64,000 bases of DNA from Methanolobus sp. ZRKC5. Its GTDB lineage: Archaea; Halobacteriota; Methanosarcinia; Methanosarcinales; Methanosarcinaceae. The translations under genes were made by a program, and so were the position numbers. The notes below the pieces were generated by a model, which made no database searches, was not told the origin of the DNA, and saw only the letters and a program-made list of their open reading frames with translations. Location of the stretch: assembly GCF_038446525.1 (NCBI RefSeq), contig NZ_CP151792.1, positions 2,914,001-2,978,000 of the forward strand. The letters run 5' to 3'. This document shows, piece by piece, positions 1,357 to 28,865 of this stretch (position 1 is the stretch's first letter; each line of letters begins with the position of its first letter).

Positions 1357-2649
1357 GTGATGGGGCATATTCAAAAACGTCGGATACTTGTAGGAACAAT
1401 TTGTTTAATCTTGCTCCTGTTTACCATTCATACAACAGTAGCCAATAGCAATGATATTTCCACTGATATCGTATCCAGTTACAAATTACTTCCTGAAGAA
1501 GGGATTGTGAAAGTTTCCAAAGATATCACATTTTTTAATAACAACACTGATACAAAATACTGGAGAGGCTACTACTCCAACTACAATTATTATCTGCCGG
1601 AAGGGGCAATGAATATAAAAGCCCGCGACAATGAAAATCCAATTGTTTTCAAGATATCTCCTGACGGTTATTATGTGTTCAATTTCAACCAGAAGGTCTG
1701 GTATGAGGAAAATTACACATTCAATATAGATTATGAACTTGAGATAAACAGGAATACGGCTGTTTTTTCCTTAAACGAATATGGAGACAACATAGAGGTC
1801 ACACTTGAAGTGCCATCGGATTTTGATACGCAAATAGGTAGAGATGATTACAAAATAGAAGATAAAAAATATTCAAGTGTGTATATATTCGAGAAAGGGC
1901 AAAAATGGGACAAGTCCTGCATTGTCAATTCCGTAAGAGTATCGCCACGTCTGACATTAAAAGATACAGCTCATCTTACAGAAAGAGATGTGGATGTAGA
2001 AGTCAGATATTGGGAAGGCGAAGAGGAGTGGGCACAGGACATCATGCAAACAACCGTTGAGAGTTTAACGTTGCTTGAAGACAAATGGGGAATTGCATAT
2101 CCTGCAAAATACAACGTCACGATCACACAGGCAAATCTAACTGAAACCGGCGGATATGGCGGATATAACCAGGGAAGGAACGGAATATGGTTATTATATA
2201 CTTCCAACCATGGAATACTCATACATGAACTTGCACATTACTGGACACGCGCTTGCAACTTTGACCAATTGTGGATGGATGAAGGTTATGCAGACCTGTA
2301 TTCGTATTTGATCCTAAGTGAAATAGAACCAGAAGAAGCTGTCTCAAGACGTAATAGATTCCTTGACAAATACAATAATCTGAAATATCAATATGATTAC
2401 CCATTATCCGATTGGGATACACCTGAAAGTATCGATGGTTCTACGGAAGAATATGTAGATTTCGGATACAAAAAAGCATTTTCCCTTACCCTTACATTAT
2501 ATGAAACAACAGGCATTGACACATTGCAGGAAATGAACCAACTATTTGTAAATTACGGAGACGATATTGATAACTTGGATTATCTTAAAATCGTTGATTC
2601 AGTTTCAAATCAGGATACAAGCTTTATTAAAACTTTTATCTATGCCTAA
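1357..2649 (+). CDS. Secreted M1-like (gluzincin) metallopeptidase
   Basis: A protein of about 430 residues with an N-terminal hydrophobic signal segment (residues ~9-29), so it is exported or anchored by its N-terminus. The middle is a beta-rich domain as in M1 aminopeptidases. The zinc site is HELAH at residues 290-294, followed by WMDEGYA with Glu309. The gap between the second His and this Glu is 14 residues rather than the 18 usual in M1, so it is a divergent gluzincin. The start is GTG 1357 or the overlapping ATG 1360; no strong ribosome binding site decides. It likely cleaves peptides or protein N-termini outside the cell. A MITE inserted 30 bp downstream leaves the gene intact. Confidence 0.75.
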   Translation: MMGHIQKRRILVGTICLILLLFTIHTTVANSNDISTDIVSSYKLLPEEGIVKVSKDITFFNNNTDTKYWRGYYSNYNYYLPEGAMNIKARDNENPIVFKISPDGYYVFNFNQKVWYEENYTFNIDYELEINRNTAVFSLNEYGDNIEVTLEVPSDFDTQIGRDDYKIEDKKYSSVYIFEKGQKWDKSCIVNSVRVSPRLTLKDTAHLTERDVDVEVRYWEGEEEWAQDIMQTTVESLTLLEDKWGIAYPAKYNVTITQANLTETGGYGGYNQGRNGIWLLYTSNHGILIHELAHYWTRACNFDQLWMDEGYADLYSYLILSEIEPEEAVSRRNRFLDKYNNLKYQYDYPLSDWDTPESIDGSTEEYVDFGYKKAFSLTLTLYETTGIDTLQEMNQLFVNYGDDIDNLDYLKIVDSVSNQDTSFIKTFIYA

Positions 2650-2679
2650 AATACACCTAGTCTGCATCAATATGTTTTC

Positions 2680-2873
2680 GTAACTATTCAGCCTGATAAA
2701 AACGCTATCAATAACAATCTTGACAAAAAGTTGAAACGTAAATTTCATTAGGATCATTTATTTTGATTGTTGCTATTGATTGCTTTTTTGATTGTTAGAT
2801 TGTTAGTGAGCAGACATCTCTATTTCGATGAAATCAGTACCAATAGGCAAATCGTGCCAGGCTGAATAGTTAC
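2680..2873 (-). mobile_element. 194-bp MITE, IS66-type ends (copy 1)
   Basis: Terminal inverted repeats are GTAACTATTCAGCCTG and its complement, the same ends as the IS66 element at 5837-7458. An exact 8-bp target duplication, ATGTTTTC, flanks it (2672-2679 and 2874-2881). It has no transposase, and the interior carries repeated CAATC/GATTG motifs. Orientation is opposite to the copies at 29964, 42203 and 54716. Confidence 0.92.
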
Positions 2874-2986
2874 ATGTTTTCAAATGATTAAAATAGAATA
2901 CTTTTATAAAATATACTTCTGGCGAATATATTTATAACTTAACGAAGCATAAAGGAAATGAGTAGTGTAGAAGACCATGCACTATT

Positions 2987-5623
2987 GTGACTTTAAAAAA
3001 TCACATGCCGTTTATTCACTTATGGGGTAAGTGGGAAATGAATGGGTATTTTAAAAACAATGAAAACACTATGGAAAATTTAGTTGACGTACTTGATGAT
3101 ATATTAAATCAGGTATCAATTGAAGAATTATTGAAGATACTTGTAGACAGGATACCATCTTTATTTTCAGAATCTGGAAACGTATCCGCTAAAGTGTCCT
3201 GGCTGGATAAGCATTGCCAGTCCCAATCCTTCGTTGAATCTGGTGTTCTTCTTACCAGTGACATCATGATACACGGAAAAAAAGAAGGTTTTATTGAAAT
3301 CATAATCGCAGGCAAGAATACAGAAGTCGAAAATAATGCATACCATATCCCTGATTATGAAAAATTGCTACACCTTATCTCCAGAATGATTTCTATCTTT
3401 TTTGAAAAAAGGAAAGAAATTACGAAACTAGAAAAAATGGAAAAAAAGGTGAGGAACTATTACGACAAACTTGAAGATTATATATTTGTAGTTGATTTGA
3501 ATGGAAATATACTTGATTTCAACAAATGTTTCGAAAACTGCACAGGATATACTGCCAAAGAACTCCTTCAAACGAACATTAAGGACATACTCACCCAATG
3601 CACTGGTGACTTTGGAGAATCCTCTCTGATAAAAGATGCTGTCACGCAGGGAATCTCGACATTTGAGTTTGAGCATAGATGCAAGAATGGAGATTGCGTA
3701 CCTTTGAGCATCACCTGCAAACCACTTGAAAATGATGAAGATAACACCTTTATCTGTGTTGGAAAAAATATATCAGATACAAAAAAGGCTGAGTATGAAC
3801 TGCAGGAATCTGAAAGAAAGTATTCAACTATCGTCGAAAAAAGTAATGATGGGATTATTATCGTTCAGGAAGGAGCAATCAGGTTTGCAAATTCAAGAAT
3901 GTTAGATATTACCGGATATGCATATGAAGAGATCATTGATGAAAATTACCTGAAACTTATTCCTATAAGTGAACATAAAAATTTTAGTGAGTGGCTCCAC
4001 CAATATAACAGCAAAGTGGATAATAAAATAATATCCCATATCAACCTGCTTACAAAAAACAACGAAGAGATACCTGTTGAGATCACCAGCTCGGAAATTA
4101 ATTATGAAGGGAAAGAAGCAAAACTTCTTATTATAAGGGATATCAGCAAAAGGAAAAATATCGAAGTACTTCTTAAAAATGAAAGGGATAAAATTGAGAA
4201 TTATCTGGATGTTGCCGGTTCTATAATAGGAATAGTTGGCACAGATACAAATATCATGTTTGTTAACAAAAAAGGAGCAGAAGTTCTTGGTTACGATAAA
4301 GATGAGATTATAGGCAAGAACTGGTTTGATAATTTCCTTCCTGAAAGCGTAAGGGAAATGACCCGGGATAATTTTATTAAAGTAATTAACGGTGAAATCG
4401 ATCCACCTCAATATTTCGAAAATTTGGTTCTTACAAAAAATGGTGAAGAGAGACTAATATTCTGGCACGATGTACCCTTTGAAGACGAAAATGGTCAGCG
4501 TATTGGAGTGATCAGTTCAGGAGAAGATATTACCGAGAGCAGAAAAATGGAAGCAATGCTCATAGAATCGAAAAAGAATCTTCAAACAATATTTGACCAT
4601 ATTGATGATCTGATATCTATTCATGAACCCCATGGAAAATTTATAGATGTCAACAGGGCTGTACTCTCTTCCACCGGATATACAAAGGATGAAATGCTTG
4701 AAATGCGTCCAAAAGACATGGTATGGGTGGGAATGAAACCTCTTATGGATGGATATACCGAACGCATATTAAGAGAAAAAAATGTTATTTTTGAGATATA
4801 TAACGTTCACAAGGACGGAACCTTACTGCCTCATGAAGTAAATTCGAGGCTAATTGAATACAAAGGGGAAAAGGCAATAATCTCAGTCGCAAGAGACATA
4901 ACTGAGAGGAAGAAAGCTGAAGAGAGGCTTAAAAGATATGCAGGCGAACTCAAGCAGTCAAACGAACTAAAAGATCTTTTCACAGACATCATCAGACATG
5001 ATCTCCTAACGCCTGCCAGTGTTGTCAAGGGTTATACAGAAGAATTAATCCTTAGCATTACTGATGAGGAATCACTCAAACTTGCAGAAAAAGTAAGGGA
5101 GAATAACAACAGACTCATCGAGCTTCTTGAAACTGCTACTAAACTGGCTAAACTACAAAATAAAGAAGACATTACTTTTGAAAATATGGATATTCTTCCT
5201 GTTTTCAAAATGGTATTGGACAGTTTCAAAGCCCAGATAGAAATGAAAGAGCATGAAATTATCTTTACAGGAAACGGACCTTACCCGTCAATGGTCAATA
5301 CGGTTATTGAAGAGGTTTTTGCAAACCTCCTTTCCAATGCTATTAAGTACAGTCCTCCAAAAAGTGCGATAGAAATAGCTTTTACCGATGAAGAGGACAT
5401 GTGGAAGATAAGTGTTGCTGACTTTGGAATTGGCATTCCCAATCAAGATAAACCGCTTCTTTTCACCCGTTTCCACCGCGCTGACAAAAAAGGAATAAAG
5501 GGAACAGGACTTGGCCTTGCTATAGTTAAAAGGATAATAGAACTACATAGTGGCAAATATGGAGTGGAAGATAATCCAAAAGGAAAAGGCAGTGTTTTCT
5601 GGGTAATGTTGAAGAAAGGATAA
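2987..5623 (+). CDS. Soluble multi-PAS sensor histidine kinase
   Basis: 878 residues, no membrane segment. An N-terminal ~150-residue sensory region (GAF-like, uncertain) is followed by four PAS domains (roughly 155-275, 280-395, 400-520, 525-645), each ending in the usual DIS/DITxRK signature. The dimerisation domain is of the divergent archaeal type, with phospho-acceptor His671 in IIRHDLLTP. The ATPase domain has the N box (NLLSNAIKYSP), DFGIGIP and [12 protein letters not shown]. The start is uncertain: GTG 2987 gives the longest form; ATG at 3005, 3038 and 3071 are possible. A TATA-like TATTTATAAC near 2927-2936 precedes it. No response regulator adjoins; the ligand is unknown. Confidence 0.85.
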   Translation: MTLKNHMPFIHLWGKWEMNGYFKNNENTMENLVDVLDDILNQVSIEELLKILVDRIPSLFSESGNVSAKVSWLDKHCQSQSFVESGVLLTSDIMIHGKKEGFIEIIIAGKNTEVENNAYHIPDYEKLLHLISRMISIFFEKRKEITKLEKMEKKVRNYYDKLEDYIFVVDLNGNILDFNKCFENCTGYTAKELLQTNIKDILTQCTGDFGESSLIKDAVTQGISTFEFEHRCKNGDCVPLSITCKPLENDEDNTFICVGKNISDTKKAEYELQESERKYSTIVEKSNDGIIIVQEGAIRFANSRMLDITGYAYEEIIDENYLKLIPISEHKNFSEWLHQYNSKVDNKIISHINLLTKNNEEIPVEITSSEINYEGKEAKLLIIRDISKRKNIEVLLKNERDKIENYLDVAGSIIGIVGTDTNIMFVNKKGAEVLGYDKDEIIGKNWFDNFLPESVREMTRDNFIKVINGEIDPPQYFENLVLTKNGEERLIFWHDVPFEDENGQRIGVISSGEDITESRKMEAMLIESKKNLQTIFDHIDDLISIHEPHGKFIDVNRAVLSSTGYTKDEMLEMRPKDMVWVGMKPLMDGYTERILREKNVIFEIYNVHKDGTLLPHEVNSRLIEYKGEKAIISVARDITERKKAEERLKRYAGELKQSNELKDLFTDIIRHDLLTPASVVKGYTEELILSITDEESLKLAEKVRENNNRLIELLETATKLAKLQNKEDITFENMDILPVFKMVLDSFKAQIEMKEHEIIFTGNGPYPSMVNTVIEEVFANLLSNAIKYSPPKSAIEIAFTDEEDMWKISVADFGIGIPNQDKPLLFTRFHRADKKGIKGTGLGLAIVKRIIELHSGKYGVEDNPKGKGSVFWVMLKKG

Positions 5624-19709: not shown

Positions 19710-20529
19710 TTAAACCCTCCTTCTCAAAGATACGAATACTGCACCAAACATGCATATAATTGCAAGCAGAACCTCAAATCCCGGCACACTGGAATCCGAA
19801 CCTTTTTCTTCTATTCCAGACTGAGATTGGACCGCAGCATTGGACCTTATCTGTTCTGCCATTTCTTTGAGTTCAGCTTCATCCTTGAGCATCTCATAGA
19901 AGCCATGCCACTGGACAAAATCCGGACCTAACATGAATGCACCCATTCTTGCACGCCTGCCCTCATGATGCCATACCTCATATATTTTGAATTCTATGGG
20001 CTCATCAAAGTTCTGCTTGGTCAATAATCCATCTTCTCTAAGTTGGTCAACTATCAATTTTGAATCTGTATATTTCTGGTTGTATAATGCGACAGTATTG
20101 TCTGCATTTACGTAGTAGTTTCTGATCCAGTCATCTGAGTGGCACTGGGCACACACTGAATACATCCTTTCACGCTTTTCCTGCCATGTAAAACCATCAC
20201 TTATGGGAGTTACAAATACGTTTGCCGTGTTGTCAGTACGTCTGGATATCGGTGGTTCAAGTTCCCATGAAAGACGTAAACTTACATCGTGCGTAGGTTC
20301 CAGCTCATCCGTCCCAGACATGTGACATACAGTACAGGTCGGCGTCCTGTAGTCCTCTCCTGCTACCCATTCATCAGAACTCCAGTTCCATTGATCTCCT
20401 TCAGTATTATAGATGCTTCCGTGCTTTGATTCAGAGAATATCTCGGTCTGAGGATGATCCGGTCCAAGTTTGAAGCGCAAGAGCTAGAAATACAATCAAT
20501 GTCCACACTGATAAGTATGCAATCTTCAT
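19710..20529 (-). pseudogene. HAO-like multiheme cytochrome c, internal deletion
   Basis: The 3' part reads KLGPDHPQTEIFSESKHG and carries two heme-binding motifs (CTVCH, CAQCH) and a C-terminal PGF-type anchor (VPGFEVLLAIICMFG..RRRV), as in hydroxylamine-oxidoreductase-like octaheme cytochromes. A good signal peptide (MKIAYLSVWTLIVFLALALQ) starts at 20529 but is joined directly to the C-terminal domain in a different frame. The N-terminal region with the other hemes is missing, so an internal deletion has destroyed the gene. A 256-residue frame from TTG 20480 remains open but would lack a signal. Confidence 0.7.
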
Positions 20530-20654: not shown

Positions 20655-21983
20655 TTATCTCGATGATTCAAAGCATGAAGAATTCTCAGTACACATATCC
20701 AGACAATCCCTTTTAACGCCCATTTCTTTTAATGATTCTTCCATGTTATATATCTCATCCATATTCTCGGCTAAGATTATAACAGCAAAATCACCGGACG
20801 ATGGTAATGTATCACAACTAAAAGGAAATACAGAATTTAATTTTTTGCCGTCATAAAGTACTGGTTCAATACGTTCAGTGAGCTCAAGAAATGAACATGC
20901 TGCGGTCTTTATCTTTATCAATTTCCAGTATGGAATGGAGGGGATAAATTCTTCAATGTTATCTACGATCATGCCCGCATAAGAGGAAATATTAAAACGA
21001 GCGTTATTTTCAACAGGAAATATACCATCATCAGATACAATATAATCAATGCCGACTACACCCCGATACCCGAATTCAGCCATATTATTGACAATTTTTG
21101 CAGATGATTTTGCAATGTAATTTAAAATGTCTGGTGAGGGATTTTCTCCTTTGAGTGTACCAATGTGTACCATGCCTCTTTCGCATATTTGATCCCGCAT
21201 CCCAAGAGAGTTTATATTACCATCTCTGCTGATTGCCCACTGATCATTCGGAGAAGACGAGACATTCAGAAAAGGCTCAATGATAACATGTTTTTCGCCG
21301 CTAATTGCAATTTCGTGATATATTTCAGAAATATCAGTGCCTTTGGTTTTATATAACGACATACCAGTTTCACCCAGAGTACCGCGAATAATAACAGTTT
21401 CGCAGGTTGACAGATATCCGTTAATAATGTTTTTCATATCTATACAATTTGCATTGTCTTCAGGATGCATTTCAAATAAACTGCCTTCAACGACAGACAC
21501 GCCTAATTCTTGACATACAGTCTTGAAAGCTGACTTATCATTATATTTTAATGTTGCAGTTTCAGTTGCTCCGAAAAGATCAGCTCCAAGGGCTTTTGCA
21601 GCTTCAGTTTCCATATGCCCTGAAAACCATGGCACATATACAGGTTTTTTTCCTATCTGCCTGATAATTTTTTTAACTGTTTCCGGATCATTAACAATAA
21701 GTTCCGAGAGAGTCATCTCTCTTGAATGAACATTATATTCAACAATATGATCCGACCCAAGACCATGAGAGCGAAGCCATTTATGGTACTCAAAATCCAG
21801 CTTTCCACGTAGAACTACCAGATCATCCCGGCGTGCTACCGGAAGCGCTCTGTCACATTTTGAATTGACAGATACATCACGGTTTGGGAACTGAGAGAAA
21901 GAATCAGCCCCGTAAATTATTAACTCATTGTCATTGTTTGAGATACATTTCCTTAGCGGTTGGTAATCGTACATATACTGCAC
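20655..21983 (-). CDS. ATP-grasp ligase-like protein
   Basis: 442 residues without membrane segments. The central and C-terminal parts have an ATP-grasp look: NDKSAFKTVCQELGV as the usual start of the fold, ETVIIRGTLGETG in the glycine-rich loop position, VIIEPFL as hinge, and GVVGIDYIVSDDGIFPVENNARFN with the Mg-binding Glu/Asn. Such enzymes join a carboxylate to an amine or thiol through an acyl phosphate. It lies last in a minus-strand run with CDP-alcohol phosphotransferase, PLP enzyme and nucleotidyltransferase, so it may add an amino acid or acyl group to their product. The substrate is unknown. Confidence 0.7.
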   Translation of the reverse strand: MQYMYDYQPLRKCISNNDNELIIYGADSFSQFPNRDVSVNSKCDRALPVARRDDLVVLRGKLDFEYHKWLRSHGLGSDHIVEYNVHSREMTLSELIVNDPETVKKIIRQIGKKPVYVPWFSGHMETEAAKALGADLFGATETATLKYNDKSAFKTVCQELGVSVVEGSLFEMHPEDNANCIDMKNIINGYLSTCETVIIRGTLGETGMSLYKTKGTDISEIYHEIAISGEKHVIIEPFLNVSSSPNDQWAISRDGNINSLGMRDQICERGMVHIGTLKGENPSPDILNYIAKSSAKIVNNMAEFGYRGVVGIDYIVSDDGIFPVENNARFNISSYAGMIVDNIEEFIPSIPYWKLIKIKTAACSFLELTERIEPVLYDGKKLNSVFPFSCDTLPSSGDFAVIILAENMDEIYNMEESLKEMGVKRDCLDMCTENSSCFESSR

Positions 21984-22037
21984 CTCCTTTTTTCAATTAT
22001 GTTCAATTGAAATTTGTTGGTATTTGTTCCAGAATAT

Positions 22038-22670
22038 TCATATATAAATAGCTGTCAATACCATGGCGTAAATCAGGAGACTATAAAACCACCTGCTGGA
22101 AAACTTAGGGGTTCGGATTGGTGCTACATTAAAGGCAGCTATGATCATTAACAGTGCATATATAGCAATTGCAAAGGTCGGCTGGCTGAAATAACTGTTA
22201 AATAGAAAGAGAAAGGCAAGAATAAGGACATTGTTGTCAAGTGCTAATCCCATATATGTCGAATCATCAACAAGACCGAAAACATTGAAGTAACTCAATC
22301 TTATTACACCAACAGCAACAATTACGAAAGCGCCGGGCAGGAACCATGGACTGAATTCTCCATAGCTCAAAAGAAATACAGCGGGACAAATGCCAAAACT
22401 TACTATATCTATCAATGAGTCAAGTTGCCCACCAAAAGCTCGATATTCATCAGTTCGCCCTTTCATCCGACGAGCAATGATTCCGTCCCCCCAGTCAAAA
22501 ACAACAGCCCAAAGCATCCCAATGATCGCAAGTGACAAATCGCCTAATATACCATAGTATATACTAAGGACTGCACACAACAGTCCTGCAAGCGAACAGA
22601 TATTTGGGAGATCACGGGCGAAAGCAAGCATTCCTGTCTGATGTGATCGTTGATGGTCTTGATCACTCAT
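22038..22670 (-). CDS. CDP-alcohol phosphatidyltransferase family enzyme
   Basis: 210 residues with several membrane helices. The family signature D-G-x2-A-R-x(n)-G-x3-D-x3-D is visible as DGIIARRMKGRTDEYRAFGG and QLDSLID. These enzymes transfer a phospho-alcohol between a CDP-activated partner and a second alcohol, for example in phospholipid synthesis. Its start overlaps the stop of the PLP enzyme by 4 bases. With a LicC-like cytidylyltransferase in the same operon, the CDP-activated molecule is probably the headgroup made by that enzyme (inference), rather than CDP-archaeol. Confidence 0.8.
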   Translation of the reverse strand: MSDQDHQRSHQTGMLAFARDLPNICSLAGLLCAVLSIYYGILGDLSLAIIGMLWAVVFDWGDGIIARRMKGRTDEYRAFGGQLDSLIDIVSFGICPAVFLLSYGEFSPWFLPGAFVIVAVGVIRLSYFNVFGLVDDSTYMGLALDNNVLILAFLFLFNSYFSQPTFAIAIYALLMIIAAFNVAPIRTPKFSSRWFYSLLIYAMVLTAIYI

Positions 22671-23785
22671 CGGGATCCCTCCACTTTATTTGAGTCAATA
22701 ACATCTATCAACGCTTCAACTAATTTGCAATTTTCTGTTTCAGTACGACTGGCGATACGAACATAACGGCTAGAGTCAGGTAGAGTTTTGTCCTGACAGT
22801 GTTTTATGTACATGTTATGCTCAATGAACAATCGCCGTGTGACTTCAGGACCACTTTGTGTGTGATCTGGCAGGCGGCAGAAAATAAAGTTTGCATCCGG
22901 TTTATAAGCAGTCATTCCCGGGATAGCGCACAAGCTTTTATACAGATTATCCCGGTCAATCCGTACCTGGTTGCAACTTTCGACAAATTCCTGTCTATAA
23001 TCAGGCAGTATCCGCAGAAACTCTTCGGCAAATCCGTTAATATTCCAGATATGTACGCCTTTCCTTACAGATTCAGCAAATGCTAAATTTGCAGTTAGCA
23101 TATAACCGATCCTAAGGCCGCAGATACCATAGGCTTTACTCATGCTTTTAAGGATCGCCATATTTGGATACTGTTCTAGTTCATGTTCCAGAGTTGTCTT
23201 ATCAGGATCATGCACAAAATCCATGAAGGATTCATCGATAATCAGCATACAGTCATGGTTTGCAAGTTTTTGTGCAAGAGATATCAGATCGGACTTGGGA
23301 ACCATTAGGGATGTTGGATTATTAGGTGTTACCACAACAGCAACATCTGCTTTAACCTTGATCGCTTCAGCAGCAAATTTGTCTACATCCAGTTGAAATG
23401 ATGGAAATTCAAGAGGAAATTCAACTACCTGACCTGCAGGCGCTGCATTCGCATATTCATTAAAAGATGGCACTGGAACGATTAACTTACCAGATATGTG
23501 ACCGGAGATTATTTTGATAAGTTCAGCAGCACCATTTCCTACAACAATTCTTTCAGCAGGTTGATGGATCAGATCACCTATAAGACCGGCAAGAGCATCC
23601 TGTGCAATTGGATAGTTAAGGACAATGTCGTGAATTTGATCTTTAAAGTTTGTAAAAACTGCTTCTGGCGGAAAATATAGATTGTAAAGATAAGCATGAT
23701 CAATAAATTCATGGCGATAGTAACCACCATGCTGCCTGGAAATGAAATCATATTTTTCAGTTTGAGTCTTGTAATTGTGTTGCAT
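22667..23785 (-). CDS. PLP enzyme, HisC/CobD-like (fold type I)
   Basis: 372 residues of the class I/II aminotransferase fold, nearest in style to histidinol-phosphate aminotransferase and the related threonine-phosphate decarboxylase CobD. Visible landmarks are VVGNGAAELI (phosphate cup), VVTPNNPTS, the Asp in LIIDESFMDF and the Schiff-base lysine in SMSKAYGICGLRIGY, plus the C-terminal Arg in RYVRIASR. It could be a transaminase or decarboxylase. The neighbours resemble the pairing of nucleotidyltransferase and PLP decarboxylase in FrbH of FR-900098 synthesis. It overlaps the upstream gene by 29 bases. Confidence 0.75.
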   Translation of the reverse strand: MQHNYKTQTEKYDFISRQHGGYYRHEFIDHAYLYNLYFPPEAVFTNFKDQIHDIVLNYPIAQDALAGLIGDLIHQPAERIVVGNGAAELIKIISGHISGKLIVPVPSFNEYANAAPAGQVVEFPLEFPSFQLDVDKFAAEAIKVKADVAVVVTPNNPTSLMVPKSDLISLAQKLANHDCMLIIDESFMDFVHDPDKTTLEHELEQYPNMAILKSMSKAYGICGLRIGYMLTANLAFAESVRKGVHIWNINGFAEEFLRILPDYRQEFVESCNQVRIDRDNLYKSLCAIPGMTAYKPDANFIFCRLPDHTQSGPEVTRRLFIEHNMYIKHCQDKTLPDSSRYVRIASRTETENCKLVEALIDVIDSNKVEGSR

Positions 23786-24767
23786 CAGGTATTATTTCTC
23801 TTAAATGATGTTGATGTGGCACTTCATTTTTTAAAGTCTTAGCTTGATAAATTGACTTTAATTTCAAAGGATTAGACTGGGTCAATGGCCTTAAGCCAGA
23901 AAGTGAACGAGTAACCACTTTTTCTCCCTGTTTTTTGCTTGTTAAAAAAAATGGCTTTAGTATTCCAGAAATCTTTGATGTGGTATTGTAAGGAATGATT
24001 GTCTCATATTTGTCTTCTGAAAATAATCTCTTAGCCTTTTCAAGATCTGAGACTGTATCTATTTCGTACCATCGCTTGCTGTCAAATGAGACTGTTTCAA
24101 GAGAGAGACTGCCATCAGACACCATTTCCGCAAAGACAGTTTCATAATAGTCATTTACTTTGCCAGCTGAAATGTACTGACCCAGCCTTTCTTTAATGCT
24201 ATTCCACGAAGGAAGTGAAAAACTGTAAATATTGACAGTCTTGTACCTTATCTCATCAAGAGGTCCGGCAATACCGCTTTGGAATTTCTTAACATGATGG
24301 GAGCCACTGGCTGTAACAGTGGAACCATTCATCCATGGTTGCATGCATCCAACGGCAATTCGGTCAGGAGAGCACATGCCATCCAGAAGAGCTACGTCAA
24401 AAATGAGATCACTTTCAATAAGCAAGAAAGGCTCATTAATAATATCCCGCGCCATCCAGAGTGAATAGATGTTATTGGTGGTCGCGTAAAGAGGACTGGA
24501 AATATAATCAATTGTCATACCACATGAACGCGTTTCTAAAAAATCACGAATACATTTTTCCTGGTATCCCGTGACAACGACAAGACGTTTGAAGCCTTGC
24601 TTTTTCAAATTGATGACAAGTCGCTCAAGTATAGAAGCCTCATGAACCATTGTAAGGCACTTAGGTGTGTCGCGTGTTAGAGGGTACAGACGACTGCCCT
24701 TACCAGCTGCCAATAATAATGCGGTGGTTATATTTCCATTATCACTATTGCTGTGGTCCAAACTCAT
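23757..24767 (-). CDS. LicC-like nucleotidyltransferase (CTP:phospho-alcohol type)
   Basis: 336 residues. The N-terminal NTP-transferase domain has LLLAAGKGSRLYPLTRDTPKCL and a downstream TNNIYSLWMARDI block plus LLIESDLIFD, typical of the LicC/PntC group of phosphocholine or phosphonate cytidylyltransferases. About 90 C-terminal residues look unstructured or are a separate region. It would activate a phosphorylated or phosphonylated alcohol or amino acid with CTP for the CDP-alcohol phosphotransferase two genes downstream. It is first gene of the operon; start ATG 24767 has no strong ribosome binding site, so the mRNA may be nearly leaderless. Confidence 0.78.
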   Translation of the reverse strand: MSLDHSNSDNGNITTALLLAAGKGSRLYPLTRDTPKCLTMVHEASILERLVINLKKQGFKRLVVVTGYQEKCIRDFLETRSCGMTIDYISSPLYATTNNIYSLWMARDIINEPFLLIESDLIFDVALLDGMCSPDRIAVGCMQPWMNGSTVTASGSHHVKKFQSGIAGPLDEIRYKTVNIYSFSLPSWNSIKERLGQYISAGKVNDYYETVFAEMVSDGSLSLETVSFDSKRWYEIDTVSDLEKAKRLFSEDKYETIIPYNTTSKISGILKPFFLTSKKQGEKVVTRSLSGLRPLTQSNPLKLKSIYQAKTLKNEVPHQHHLREIIPDATQLQDSN

Positions 24768-24859: not shown

Positions 24860-25530
24860 CTAAAAGACTGTTTCCTGTTTGAAATGTACCTTCCCCATCT
24901 CTAAAAAGATCCGTATCAGATGCAGATGCATATCTTTACTGCCCACATTTTCATAATACAAGAACATGTTGTCATCGTTTGGATAATTGCTAGATGATAA
25001 ACTGCCACACATAGACTGAGTAAAGGAATAATCTTGATATAAATCATTGACTCGCATAATTTCCAGTTCGTGAGTATAGCCACAAAAAACGTATTCTATT
25101 TTATATTTTTGTATAAAATCAATTAATGCTGCAGAATTTTTTAGAGGTAGCTCATCAGTACCCAAAACAGAATAATGAGTAATCAACAAAGGCATGTCAT
25201 ATTCTATCTGTTCAATTTCTTTCGAAACTGCATTTAGAATCTCTTTTTCAACATACTCATCATCACTATATAGTTCAGTTGTGTCTATGCTGAGAATTAA
25301 TACTTTTTTTCCATTTATCGAAATGGATTTGATGAAATTCAGATCGGTAAAATTCTCATTAACTCTGGTGATTTCCCGGTTTAAAAAAAGGTTTTTCTTT
25401 CTTGTTTTCGTTGCTTCGGAGATGGTGATTATCTCGGAATTATCAATATATTTCCGAAATAGTTCATGGGAGCGCGAATAGAGGTGCAGAGCTACGCTCA
25501 GCGCCACAATAATAACAAGAAAACATAAAT
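24860..25530 (-). pseudogene. Calcineurin-like phosphoesterase, N-terminal part lost
   Basis: The C-terminal half resembles a metallophosphoesterase: LLITHYSVLG and YVFCGYTHELE, where the family has GHTH. The N-terminal metal motifs (DxH, GDxxD, GNHD) are absent, and upstream the frame runs into a tRNA fragment, so the open frame to 25639 is not a real N-terminus. Best read as a gene truncated by the rearrangement at its 5' side. Confidence 0.5.
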
Positions 25531-25535
25531 GTGAA

Positions 25536-25580
25536 TGGTGGGCTCGATGAAATTCGAACTCATGACCCTCGCCGTGTAAA
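25536..25580 (-). pseudogene. 3' half of a tRNA, probably tRNA-Val(UAC)
   Basis: On the minus strand the sequence runs from the anticodon loop (TTTACAC) through the 3' anticodon strand (GGCGA), a variable loop, a T arm (ATGAG-TTCGAAT-TTCAT) and the acceptor strand CGAGCCCA plus CCA. The 5' acceptor, D arm and 5' anticodon strand are missing. Breaks at the anticodon loop are typical of integrase attachment sites, so this may be an att remnant. It is not a working tRNA. Confidence 0.55.
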
Positions 25581-25713
25581 TGAGTGGCATGATAGTGTTT
25601 TAGGGGTACGTACCATCGAATACCACGGAAACATTGCAAACGGTTCTACAAAACAACTTCAGTAGTTCTCTAATTTTAACCACTTAAATTTAGGAAGGTC
25701 ATACGATAGCTTT

Positions 25714-25738
25714 ATATGCGGCGTGAACGCCGCCATAT
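25714..25738. other. Palindrome at the transposase start
   Basis: ATATG-CGGCG-TGAA-CGCCG-CCATAT forms a strong hairpin just before the likely ATG at 25737. In insertion sequences such stems can block translation started from outside transcripts. Confidence 0.5.
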
Positions 25739-26701
25739 GTCATTTATAGCGTTCAATTCGAGCACCTATTCCAAAGTTGAATTAAGACCAAAACAATGTA
25801 TTGATGCTGTTCTAAAACCTCTTACTGATAATATCACCATTAATATCAATGGTTCACTTACCTGTAAAGACCAGTTTTATGCTGCCATATGCATGGCAGT
25901 AGAGAATAGTTCAGTCCACTCCATGTCAAAACACTATCAAAAGATTCCTTGTGAAACATCTACAAGATATCATCTCAAGAAACTTGATCTTGAAGAACTT
26001 ATCAGATTAAATACAAAAATTCTACTTCAAGGTCCTATTAATGCTCTGAAATCTAAGAAAAAGTATGAGTTTGCTATCGATTTCACAAATGATCCATATT
26101 ATGGAGGAACGAATTCGTCCAATGAAAACTATGTGATACGTAGCCTAGCTAAGAAGTCAACAAACTCTTTTTATTCATACGTTTCATTATCTATCATAAA
26201 CAAGAACGAGAGATTCACTATCTCCGTTCTTCCTGTAGAGAAAAATAAAACAAAGGTCTATTACCTCACCTATTTTATAGATCTGATCAATAAACTAAAC
26301 ATCAAAATCAAAGTCCTTTGTTTAGATAGGGAGTTCTATTCGGTAGACGTGTTTGAGTTCTTACAAAATGAAGATATTCCCCATATTACTCCAGTAGTAA
26401 AAAGAGGAAAAAAGATTAAGCAACTACTTATTGGGAGAAAGGCTAGGTATGCGGAATATGTTATGAAGAATCCTCAGAAAAAGGAGATTCGGTTGAATAT
26501 TGTCATTGACGTGAAGTATCTGAAAGGCAAAAGGAACAAAAATGGATGTGAAAACCTTGGGTTTGTAGTTTATGGAATAAACTTGTCTCCCCGAAAAGTT
26601 AGTACTGTATATCGAAGACGATTTGCAATTGAATCAACATACAGAATGAGAAATATAGTTAAACCCAAAACATCGACAAGAGACGTTACATTCAGATACT
26701 T
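25716..26701 (+). pseudogene. ISH3-family transposase, 3' end missing
   Basis: The DDE catalytic frame is visible: FAIDFTNDPYYGG, VLCLDREFY and [13 protein letters not shown]. The likely start is ATG 25737 (MSFIAFNSS) rather than 25716, which lies in the hairpin. After ..VTFRY the sequence changes at 26702 into the 3' end of a group II intron on the other strand, so the last part of the gene is absent. What lies beyond the intron is a different transposase, so the 3' end has been moved elsewhere, probably to the left of the window start. Confidence 0.8.
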
Positions 26702-28865
26702 GTCGAATAAGAAAGAGCGATTACTCGCCCTCCCTCTTCTAAGAACCGTACGTGAAAATTTCTCTTCATACGGCTCAAGCATTCTATAACCCTTTAAGTA
26801 TCAGGCAGTTGTTAGACTTTCCATGATATTTTGCTTCGACGCCACTAGTTTCTGTTTTCTCAGATAGCTTATTCTCCATTTAAAGTATTCTTTGTCTACA
26901 TATGGGTTCTTATCCATTTTTATGCGTGGATGTCTTACAATCTTTGTATGTGCAAAAGATTTGAGTTTAAGCCCTTCTGTGGAGAATACCCATTTCCTTG
27001 ACCCTACCCTATGCCAATATCTATCTACTATCCAGTGGTGTGATTTATCTGGATGCCGCCTTTTAGCCCACGTCCATAGCATATCCCATAATCTGGAATC
27101 AAGCTTACTGAACGTATTTTTAGAGACAACTGAACGGTGATATTCGCTCCATCCAGTGATAATAGGGTTGAGTTCCTTAATGAGAGAACTCTGAGACCGA
27201 GCTTTACCTTTCTTAATCACGTTGCTAATGCTTTTTGTGATATTCTCAATAGATTTGTTCGAGGGCTTGGTTAGAAGTTTACCATTATATTTCCGGAAAT
27301 TCCATCCCAAGAAGTCAAATCCATCGTCTATGTGTGAAACAAGAGTTTTCTCACGAGATAGTTCTAAACCCCTATCTTTCAAGAATAGTCTGATAACCTC
27401 AGCAATATCTTTAGCCACTTCCTCTGAATCAGCAGTGACGATAAAGTCATCTGCGTATCTCACAAAATTGACTTTATGGGAATTATAACTTTTTTTGTTA
27501 ATAGTTCCCTTCCTGTTTGTATGATATTTGCATGCTATTGCATTTTTCATACCGTCCAATGTGATGTTTGCCAGTACTGGAGATATTATTCCACCTTGAG
27601 CAGTACCTGCTTTGGTGGGATTCAGATGTCTATTATACACAAAACCAGCTTTAAGGAATTGCTTTAGTATTGACCGGTCCATAGGAATATTGTTCAAGAG
27701 CCATTCGTGATTTATATGATCAAAGCATCCTTTTATGTCGCCTTCCAAAATCCATTGAGCAGAGTTTCTTTTACTCAGACATGCGAACAATTGAGCTTCT
27801 GCATCTTTTGAACTTCGATATTTACGGAATCCAAATGATGTTCTGTCTGCTGTGGTTTCTGCTATTGGGCTTAAAGCAAAAGCATATAATGCCTGCATTG
27901 CTCTATCGTACATTGTAGGAATGCTTAATGGTCGTTTTTTCTTCTTTCCTTGTTTCTCAATATAGATTCTTCTCAATGGTTTAGCTTTGTAGCTCTTACC
28001 AGACAGTTCTAGAACGGCTTTCATCTTAGATTTGGATGTTGTCCATTTTTCTCCATCGATTCCAGCTGTTCTTTTACCTTTGTTCTGTGTTACTTTCTTT
28101 ACTGCCAATAATTTGGCATGAAAAGAATTGGTAAGCAGGTATTGTAGTCGTTTAACTAAATGCCACTTCTTTTGTCTAACCGCTTTTACAATTCGGGCTT
28201 GCAGCTCATTAACGTTCCCTTCGACTGTTTTCCAGTCGATGTCCTCCCACTTGAATGGGATTGAATTGTCTGCAAGCCTCTCACCTGATGGTGTAGTCGA
28301 GTATCTTGCATTCATAAGTTTGCCTCCTTTCATGTAATAGAACACCTACGGTAAGTCTGCTCCCTTTCGGGACAAGGCAAATTTTGAACCTCTATGCACT
28401 CCATTACAGACTGCCATTTGCTTTCTACCGTTTCCTTTATCCCCTGTGCTATTGTTCATTCTCACGAATTAACTACCTTTTTTTTTTTTTTACAGGAGCA
28501 CATGGGACTTACCAAGTTCTATAATATGAATAATCACGGAAACCTTAGAAGCCATCTATAGGCCGGGAATCTGTGTCCATTCTCCATAATGTGCAAAAAA
28601 CCATTATGGCCTGATTCCATACCTTTTGGTCTAAGCGTATCATTCCATTTCGCTTATCAATCATAACGACCCTTACGATGATTTGCATTATACTCTTCAT
28701 AGTTTCCTTATCCTAGCAGATAGTCAAGGATTGGAATTCCTTGCTTTCCACATTGTCCTGTGAGCTTAACACAATGATGTTACCATTCTATGCATCCCAC
28801 AGTAGGATTATCCCGAATGGAAGGAATAGCTGTTAAGCAATTCATATTGTAACTTCTTGTCACAC
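26702..28865 (-). mobile_element. Complete group II intron (copy 2, 2164 bp)
   Basis: The 5' end is GTGTGACAAGAAGTT (28865 downwards), the standard GUGYG start, and the 3' end is ..TTCGAC at 26702. Domain V is the hairpin complementary to 26743-26776. The open reading frame lies before it in the domain IV position. The 5' flank is an IS4/IS5-superfamily transposase in sense; the 3' flank is an ISH3 transposase in antisense. Both boundaries are supported by comparison with copy 1 and by exon joining. Confidence 0.92.
26801..28315 (-). CDS. ltrA: Group II intron reverse transcriptase/maturase
   Basis: 504 residues from ATG 28315, chosen because GGAGG stands 7 bases upstream; an upstream in-frame start at 28345 is less likely. 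Domains: N-terminal RT0 region, RT with IPTMYDRAMQALY, EGDIKGCFDHI and the catalytic YADD, QGGIISPVL, then the thumb/maturase domain with GWSEYHR. No HNH endonuclease. All catalytic residues seen are intact, so this copy may still splice and retrotranspose. Confidence 0.93.
   Translation of the reverse strand: MNARYSTTPSGERLADNSIPFKWEDIDWKTVEGNVNELQARIVKAVRQKKWHLVKRLQYLLTNSFHAKLLAVKKVTQNKGKRTAGIDGEKWTTSKSKMKAVLELSGKSYKAKPLRRIYIEKQGKKKKRPLSIPTMYDRAMQALYAFALSPIAETTADRTSFGFRKYRSSKDAEAQLFACLSKRNSAQWILEGDIKGCFDHINHEWLLNNIPMDRSILKQFLKAGFVYNRHLNPTKAGTAQGGIISPVLANITLDGMKNAIACKYHTNRKGTINKKSYNSHKVNFVRYADDFIVTADSEEVAKDIAEVIRLFLKDRGLELSREKTLVSHIDDGFDFLGWNFRKYNGKLLTKPSNKSIENITKSISNVIKKGKARSQSSLIKELNPIITGWSEYHRSVVSKNTFSKLDSRLWDMLWTWAKRRHPDKSHHWIVDRYWHRVGSRKWVFSTEGLKLKSFAHTKIVRHPRIKMDKNPYVDKEYFKWRISYLRKQKLVASKQNIMESLTTA

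Follow-up and report, generated by a model that had tools for sequence, protein, structure and literature searches.

A window of 64,000 nt (the whole stretch of DNA analysed, positions 2914001–2978000 of the 3,053,834-base single-contig genome of Methanolobus sp. ZRKC5) carries a real, conserved and mobile four-gene cassette for a putative variant of the CDP-aminoalcohol pathways. The cassette encodes a nucleotidyltransferase (NT), a pyridoxal-phosphate-dependent (PLP) enzyme, a CDP-alcohol phosphotransferase (CPT) and an ATP-grasp ligase. What the analysis shows is that these genes exist and are conserved as a unit with intact catalytic residues, that they passed between the domains of life, that the ligase is dispensable and that phosphoenolpyruvate (PEP) mutase is generally absent. 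The function that we favor, giving it somewhat less than an even chance, is a Kennedy/Lic-type pathway that converts phosphoserine to phosphoethanolamine, phosphoethanolamine to CDP-ethanolamine, and the latter to a phosphodiester with an optional amide cap; we infer the substrates, the order of the steps and the product.

The CobD-like PLP enzyme would decarboxylate O-phospho-L-serine to phosphoethanolamine or, alternatively, CDP-serine would be decarboxylated after the NT step; FrbH reportedly decarboxylates a CMP-phosphonate. From its family and residues, the NT is expected to join CTP and a phospho-amino-alcohol to form CDP-ethanolamine and pyrophosphate. The membrane CPT would then use CDP-ethanolamine as donor, place the phosphoethanolamine group on a hydroxyl acceptor and release CMP; in an optional last step, the ATP-grasp ligase would link the carboxylate of an amino acid to the free amine through an amide bond.

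The four open reading frames were verified on the minus strand (Table 1), as were the overlaps noticed by an earlier note on this DNA: 29 nt between the NT and PLP genes and 4 nt between the PLP and CPT genes, followed by a 54-nt gap before the ATP-grasp gene. The reading frame of the latter spans 20655–21983, but translation more likely begins at the ATG near 21974 than at the GTG at 21983, because the homologues align from codon 4 of the window frame (MYDYQ/MYGYQ).

Table 1. Genes of the cassette and the gene remnant at its edge, in window coordinates
Feature	Position	Strand	Basis or remark
NT, LicC/PntC type, 336 aa; catalytic domain at about residues 14–250, C-terminal tail poorly conserved	23757..24767	-	PF00483
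PLP enzyme, fold type I, CobD/SMUL_1544-like, 372 aa; predicted O-phosphoserine (or CDP-serine) decarboxylase	22667..23785	-	PF00155
CPT, phosphatidylserine-synthase-like membrane enzyme, 210 aa	22038..22670	-	PF01066
ATP-grasp amino-acid/peptide ligase-like protein, about 439 aa from ATG	20655..21974	-	AlphaFold model match; 442 aa from GTG 21983
Calcineurin-like phosphoesterase remnant; residues 1–77 gone	24863..25474	-	tblastn with L073 homologue

A survey of 185 Methanosarcinales genomes revealed 22 with a match to the ATP-grasp protein, one of which (G114; E 4e-4) was weak and was set aside. All four genes are present in order in 14 of the remaining 21, the window genome included; one of these 14 (L043) has an extra gene between CPT and ligase. 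The cassette is cut by contig ends in six of the other seven, and G170 has two NT-PLP-CPT copies with only a fragment of the ligase. In G170 the three-gene core is tandemly duplicated (L057, 3829–10151), the PLP proteins are identical, and the ligase fragment lies between the copies. A wider scan yielded 43 loci, of which 15 are archaeal; the 28 bacterial ones belong to Thermodesulfobacteriota, Myxococcota-labelled Deltaproteobacteria, Kiritimatiellota, Chloroflexota, Bacteroidota, Chlorobiota and Pseudomonadota, with ligases 55–75% identical to the archaeal ligase. The four genes are adjacent and in order at 17 of the 28 bacterial loci (with a split NT in L087); the others comprise L070 with an insert, the variant L091, L076, and eight loci cut by contig ends. 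L070 has all four genes and three inserted ones, located between PLP and CPT (2373–5326) and encoding a class III aminotransferase, a 2-hydroxyacid dehydrogenase and a LicD-family protein. The set for which the earlier note proposed a search in other methanogens is thus kept together, and is widespread in bacteria rather than peculiar to a methanogen, as that note had framed it. A chance neighbourhood was ruled out, since the identical gene order recurs across many genomes of both domains. The flanking genes vary between genera, and the cassette is, therefore, a stand-alone unit. A literature search, limited in the papers it covered, found no description of this four-gene set.

The NT, PLP and CPT genes constitute the core of the cassette, and the ligase is dispensable. 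The ligase is absent beside the other three genes in G080, G081, G133, G1157 and G1159, and the state without an intact ligase requires at least five changes on the PLP tree; the NT is present in every core carrier. At the position of the ligase, G1157 has a radical-SAM gene and G1159 a methyltransferase gene that overlaps the CPT gene; apart from the centre genome, these two are the sole carriers of the cassette in a sample of 395 genomes of its phylum. The alphaproteobacterial locus L091 (4084–8063) consists of a PhnW-like aminotransferase, CPT and ATP-grasp genes, and then a distant, different NT; among 398 genomes of its phylum, only L091 itself has this arrangement. Its gene set suggests a C2-amine unit as the substrate of CPT and ligase, as if one such unit had been exchanged for another. 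In G157 (L130, 7595–10647), NT and PLP enzyme are fused into a protein of 617 aa, which bears out the comparison with the fused enzyme FrbH made in the earlier note. The fusion gene adjoins genes for a CDP-glycerol:poly(glycerophosphate) glycerophosphotransferase and an ornithine-cyclodeaminase-like protein, near glycan genes; this context represents another archaeal use of the NT-PLP pair and is consistent with the pair supplying a CDP-alcohol donor.

Residue conservation was analyzed in joint alignments of CPT (A5; seven of 18 archaeal rows and 21 bacterial rows), ligase (A6; six of 18 and 24), PLP enzyme (A7; five of 16 and 19) and NT (A8; five of 16 and 17), which omit partial genes at contig ends, the split L087 NT, the N-terminally short L070 PLP enzyme and the full-length L094 ligase. 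The invariant residues are the same in the archaeal-only alignments (A1–A4). The NT matches the Pfam models PF00483 (44.6 bits) and PF12804, and its best solved relatives by sequence are LicC (1jyk) and then PntC (6pd1), in agreement with its earlier designation as LicC-like. The nucleotide-binding motif GxGxRxxPxTxxxPK and the metal-site acids are kept in all 22 rows, in which E118, D120 and E235 are identical. The counterpart of E118 in the alignment is Glu104 of Tde-PntC, which, according to PMC6697681, contacts the amine of 2-aminoethylphosphonate (AEP) and corresponds to an Asp in LicC. The alignment gave no secure mapping for an equivalent of LicC D192, and this residue was not used. The NT is predicted to be a CTP-specific cytidylyltransferase with an amine-alcohol phosphate as substrate.

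The PLP enzyme matches PF00155 with 113 bits. Its closest solved relative by sequence is 6oux, a threonine-phosphate-decarboxylase-like protein that we take to be SMUL_1544, followed by CobD. The PLP lysine K217, R225, R347 and H19-G20-G21 are identical in 24/24 rows, and the fold type, the conserved lysine and the relationship to 6oux place the enzyme with the SMUL_1544/Cj1436 group. SMUL_1544-type enzymes are proposed to produce ethanolamine phosphate (PMC4585668), and Cj1436 is described as decarboxylating L-serine phosphate (PMC11800397). Decarboxylation, one of the two reactions considered in the earlier note, accords with these nearest relatives, which are phospho-amino-acid decarboxylases, and the enzyme is predicted to decarboxylate O-phosphoserine or CDP-serine. 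A role as the cobamide CobD was ruled out by two CobD-like genes located inside a separate cobamide operon of the same genome, which leave the PLP enzyme spare for another task; one gene of the genome passes the CobD model TIGR01140 at 294.1 bits (cut-off 290.55). The second of the CobD-like genes (L038, 4416–5930) has an Asn at the position of the catalytic PLP lysine (RSVSNIVG vs RSLTKAFA), and is possibly a non-catalytic paralogue. Read by eye, an HGG segment near the N-terminus is common to the PLP enzyme and the CobD of its own genome; in the MAFFT alignment of the two proteins these segments are not aligned to each other.

The CPT exceeds the gathering cut-off of PF01066 (48.8 vs 22 bits), and its best PDB match by sequence is the phosphatidylserine synthase (PSS) MjPSS. 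The AlphaFold model (mean pLDDT 83) superimposes on MjPSS (7b1k) with a Z-score of 20.7 and a root mean square deviation of 2.2 over 176 aligned residues; the next match has a Z of 13, and DIPPS (4mnd) a Z of 11.8. Residues D59, D62, G63, A66, R67, G80, D84, S85, D88, R124 and F128 are identical in all 28 rows. The serine contacts D62, S63, D66 and F105 of MjPSS and its essential R101 correspond to D84, S85, D88, F128 and R124 of the CPT, whereas R104 is replaced by Tyr in every row. Each residue of the motif DxxDGxxAR(x8)GxxxDxxxD is kept in 28/28 rows, with an AR-to-G spacing of 12 instead of the 8 written for MjPSS (a loop longer by four residues); the paper on MjPSS elsewhere gives this spacing as variable. 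The CPT scores below the curated PSS and archaetidylserine synthase cut-offs (NF038087, 96.8 vs 240; TIGR00473, 72.9 vs 107; TIGR04217, 69.9 vs 200 bits). A role as the sole archaetidylserine synthase of the genome was ruled out, because a better copy (244 bits on TIGR04217) adjoins an archaetidylserine-decarboxylase-like gene for the same lipid.

The ATP-grasp protein matched no Pfam model, and its best solved relative by sequence is BesA. Its AlphaFold model (mean pLDDT 81) is closest to 3wvq (presumably PGM1; Z 33), 8ynd (Z 30.8), BesA (8yi6; Z 29.8) and 7r8p (with 7r8q, presumably LdmS; Z 27.7), the next group having a Z of 22. Residues E236, D313, E325, N327 and R329 are identical in 30/30 rows. 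By its nearest matches, the protein is probably an amide-forming ligase.

The presence of separate CobD genes and of a separate archaetidylserine synthase in the genome implies that the cassette does something else. Several observations weigh against the route from phosphoserine to a phosphodiester. The PLP enzyme, at 177.4 bits on TIGR01140, falls below the CobD model cut-off and may be a transaminase instead. PSS, to which the CPT is closest, uses a CDP-lipid as donor and serine as acceptor, and the CPT model matches the CDP-choline/CDP-ethanolamine transferases CPT1/CEPT1 far worse (Z 7–10). L076 has the ATP-grasp gene alone, without the other three. The L091 aminotransferase scores under the PhnW-AepZ cut-off (298.7 vs 360.8 bits), and PEP mutase was not found in its incomplete 1.7-Mb genome, leaving the L091 substrate uncertain. 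The weakest point is the acceptor. Our boldest guess is that it may be serine or a similar small alcohol; a small alcohol is preferred because intact cassettes are found in archaea and bacteria alike, despite their different glycerolipids, and because of the PSS-like pocket.

The same membrane enzyme invites two lipid readings. CDP-ethanolamine made by NT and PLP enzyme could be used by the CPT on archaeol or diacylglycerol to yield an ethanolamine phospholipid, as in a prokaryotic Kennedy route, and the ligase would aminoacylate the lipid amine. An integral membrane protein with the PSS fold and the pairing of NT with CPT fit such logic, but archaea would have to supply archaeol as the bare alcohol and bacteria diacylglycerol, two lipids of opposite glycerol stereochemistry; given also the poor match to the CEPT1/CPT1 structures and the synthase and decarboxylase-like gene already present for the archaeal lipid, we regard this as rather unlikely. 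The CPT might instead be a diverged phosphatidylserine or archaetidylserine synthase that joins a CDP-lipid to serine or a modified serine, with NT, PLP enzyme and ligase tailoring the head group or a related molecule. MjPSS is indeed its best PDB match in sequence and fold, and the four serine contacts and the essential arginine are all kept. The failure to reach any of the three curated cut-offs, the Tyr at the position of R104 and the longer loop nevertheless make this account quite unlikely, and it leaves the NT, which no core carrier lacks, without a clear task.

The remaining alternatives concern the amine. The PLP enzyme could be an aminotransferase that makes another amino-alcohol phosphate for activation by the NT, such as serinol phosphate derived from dihydroxyacetone phosphate. 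Its close relatives also include the HisC-type aminotransferase family, and PMC11800397 assigns this reaction to Cj1437, which adjoins Cj1436 in Campylobacter; the decarboxylase-like nearest solved relatives and the HGG segment in common with CobD point the other way, and we hold this option to be distinctly unlikely. A phosphonate pathway, in which AEP or another aminoalkylphosphonate is activated as a CMP ester, was a branch of the earlier note, which suggested looking for pepM elsewhere in the genome. PntC as the second-best PDB relative of the NT and the PhnW-like aminotransferase of L091 speak for it, but PF13714 had no match in the entire genome, and the PEP mutase model TIGR02320 is passed in only two of the 43 cassette genomes. 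It was rejected as the main account on these searches; a phosphonate product is unlikely, and we give the pathway very little credence. The scheme of the earlier note (activation with CTP, decarboxylation or transamination, transfer to an alcohol and ligation) is supported in part, by the conserved gene set and the relatives of its NT and PLP enzyme, but not in its phosphonate branch or its restriction to methanogens.

The trees document the mobility of the cassette. All 18 archaeal rows of the 42-row ligase tree fall into a single clade (100/100) that lies within the bacteria, with L070–L072, including a Desulfosarcina-like sulfate reducer, as sister (97/93; the root is a midpoint root and the direction is inferred from it). 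The PLP tree is less firm, with the archaea in one clade (67/80) and the bacterial row L137 beside them. As judged from these phylogenies, the cassette has moved between the domains, because the archaeal genes form a single clade nested among marine bacteria. The ligase of the window groups with Methanococcoides and not with the Methanolobus row L044 (92/67), and within its genus the cassette is found in only a few genomes, which suggests an additional transfer within the family. Carriage on a plasmid or phage was rejected, searches with the ATP-grasp protein having given one weak plasmid match (23.5% identity, Streptomyces) and no phage match.

The region 24860–28345 of the window is a disturbed edge of the cassette, and contains the phosphoesterase remnant, after which come genes for a DDE transposase and a group II intron reverse transcriptase. 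Only residues 78–281 of the L073 phosphoesterase homologue align with the window (tblastn; 83% identity). The remnant lacks the first metal-binding motifs, has GYTH in place of GHTH, and its N-terminus is replaced. In G125, G133, L075 and L090, the cassette has an intact metallophosphoesterase as its neighbour, and the L088 copy has a differing end. Directly downstream of the cassette, at 19710–20480, lies a multihaem cytochrome-like gene (PF13447).

The NT genes of Methanococcoides type (g7) have a TAG at codon 250 in all eight cases examined (L040, L042, L043, L050, L051, L052, L053 and L129), where the others encode Ser. Beyond the TAG the reading frame runs on for tens of codons, and in this part the nonsynonymous rate is lower than the synonymous rate (dN<dS) in 12 of 15 pairs from six rows. 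These proteins may carry pyrrolysine at this position, because PylS was found in each of the 14 archaeal genomes searched.

The cassette suggests that bacteria and archaea of marine sediments have exchanged the genes for a metabolite not yet described. If our reading is true, prokaryotes would have a CDP-aminoalcohol route with phosphoserine as its starting point, and the donors or acceptors known for the PSS fold would have to be revised. In its most specific form, a new family of small phosphodiesters in marine anaerobes, which we consider improbable, a soluble CDP-ethanolamine donor and a serine acceptor on a PSS-fold enzyme would yield serine ethanolamine phosphodiester without an ethanolamine kinase and with an optional amino-acid cap, perhaps as an osmolyte or signal of methanogens, ANME (anaerobic methanotrophic) archaea and sulfate reducers. 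Serine ethanolamine phosphodiester belongs to a compound class known from animals. Cultured hosts of the cassette exist (Methanococcoides vulcani, Methanococcoides seepicolus and Desulfogranum marinum), and the product can therefore be sought directly.

A comparison with known systems places the cassette among several of them. It shares the NT fold, the CTP-site motif, the metal-site residues and the CDP-aminoalcohol logic with the Lic pathway (LicC), but usually has no choline kinase or LicD, adds the PLP enzyme and CPT, and carries a Glu in place of the LicC Asp at the amine contact. The Pnt pathway of Treponema denticola (PntC and AEP transaminase) likewise sets an NT beside a PLP enzyme, has the Glu at the amine contact, and is echoed by the PhnW-like enzyme of L091. 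By contrast, the PLP enzyme of the cassette is a CobD-like protein of fold type I and not of class V, and PEP mutase is absent here and rare in the carriers. FrbH, reportedly an NT fused to a PLP decarboxylase in the synthesis of FR-900098, pairs an NT with a decarboxylase-type PLP enzyme in the same way, and the fused form recurs in G157; in the cassette, the genes are separate, CPT and ligase follow, and phosphonate genes are missing.

IPCT-DIPPS, which converts CDP-inositol and inositol phosphate to di-myo-inositol phosphate, likewise combines an NT with a CPT and forms a phosphodiester from a soluble CDP-alcohol, whereas the CPT of the cassette is structurally far nearer to PSS than to DIPPS, and an amine-type substrate and a PLP step are involved. 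MjPSS displays the same fold, metal-site Asp residues and serine-contact residues as the CPT, which differs in its scores below the curated cut-offs, the substitution of R104, the extended loop and its location beside NT and PLP genes. The ATP-grasp amide ligases (3wvq, 8ynd, BesA and 7r8p/7r8q) have the same overall fold and catalytic residues as the cassette ligase, which is only about 15% identical to them and is an optional component of the cassette.

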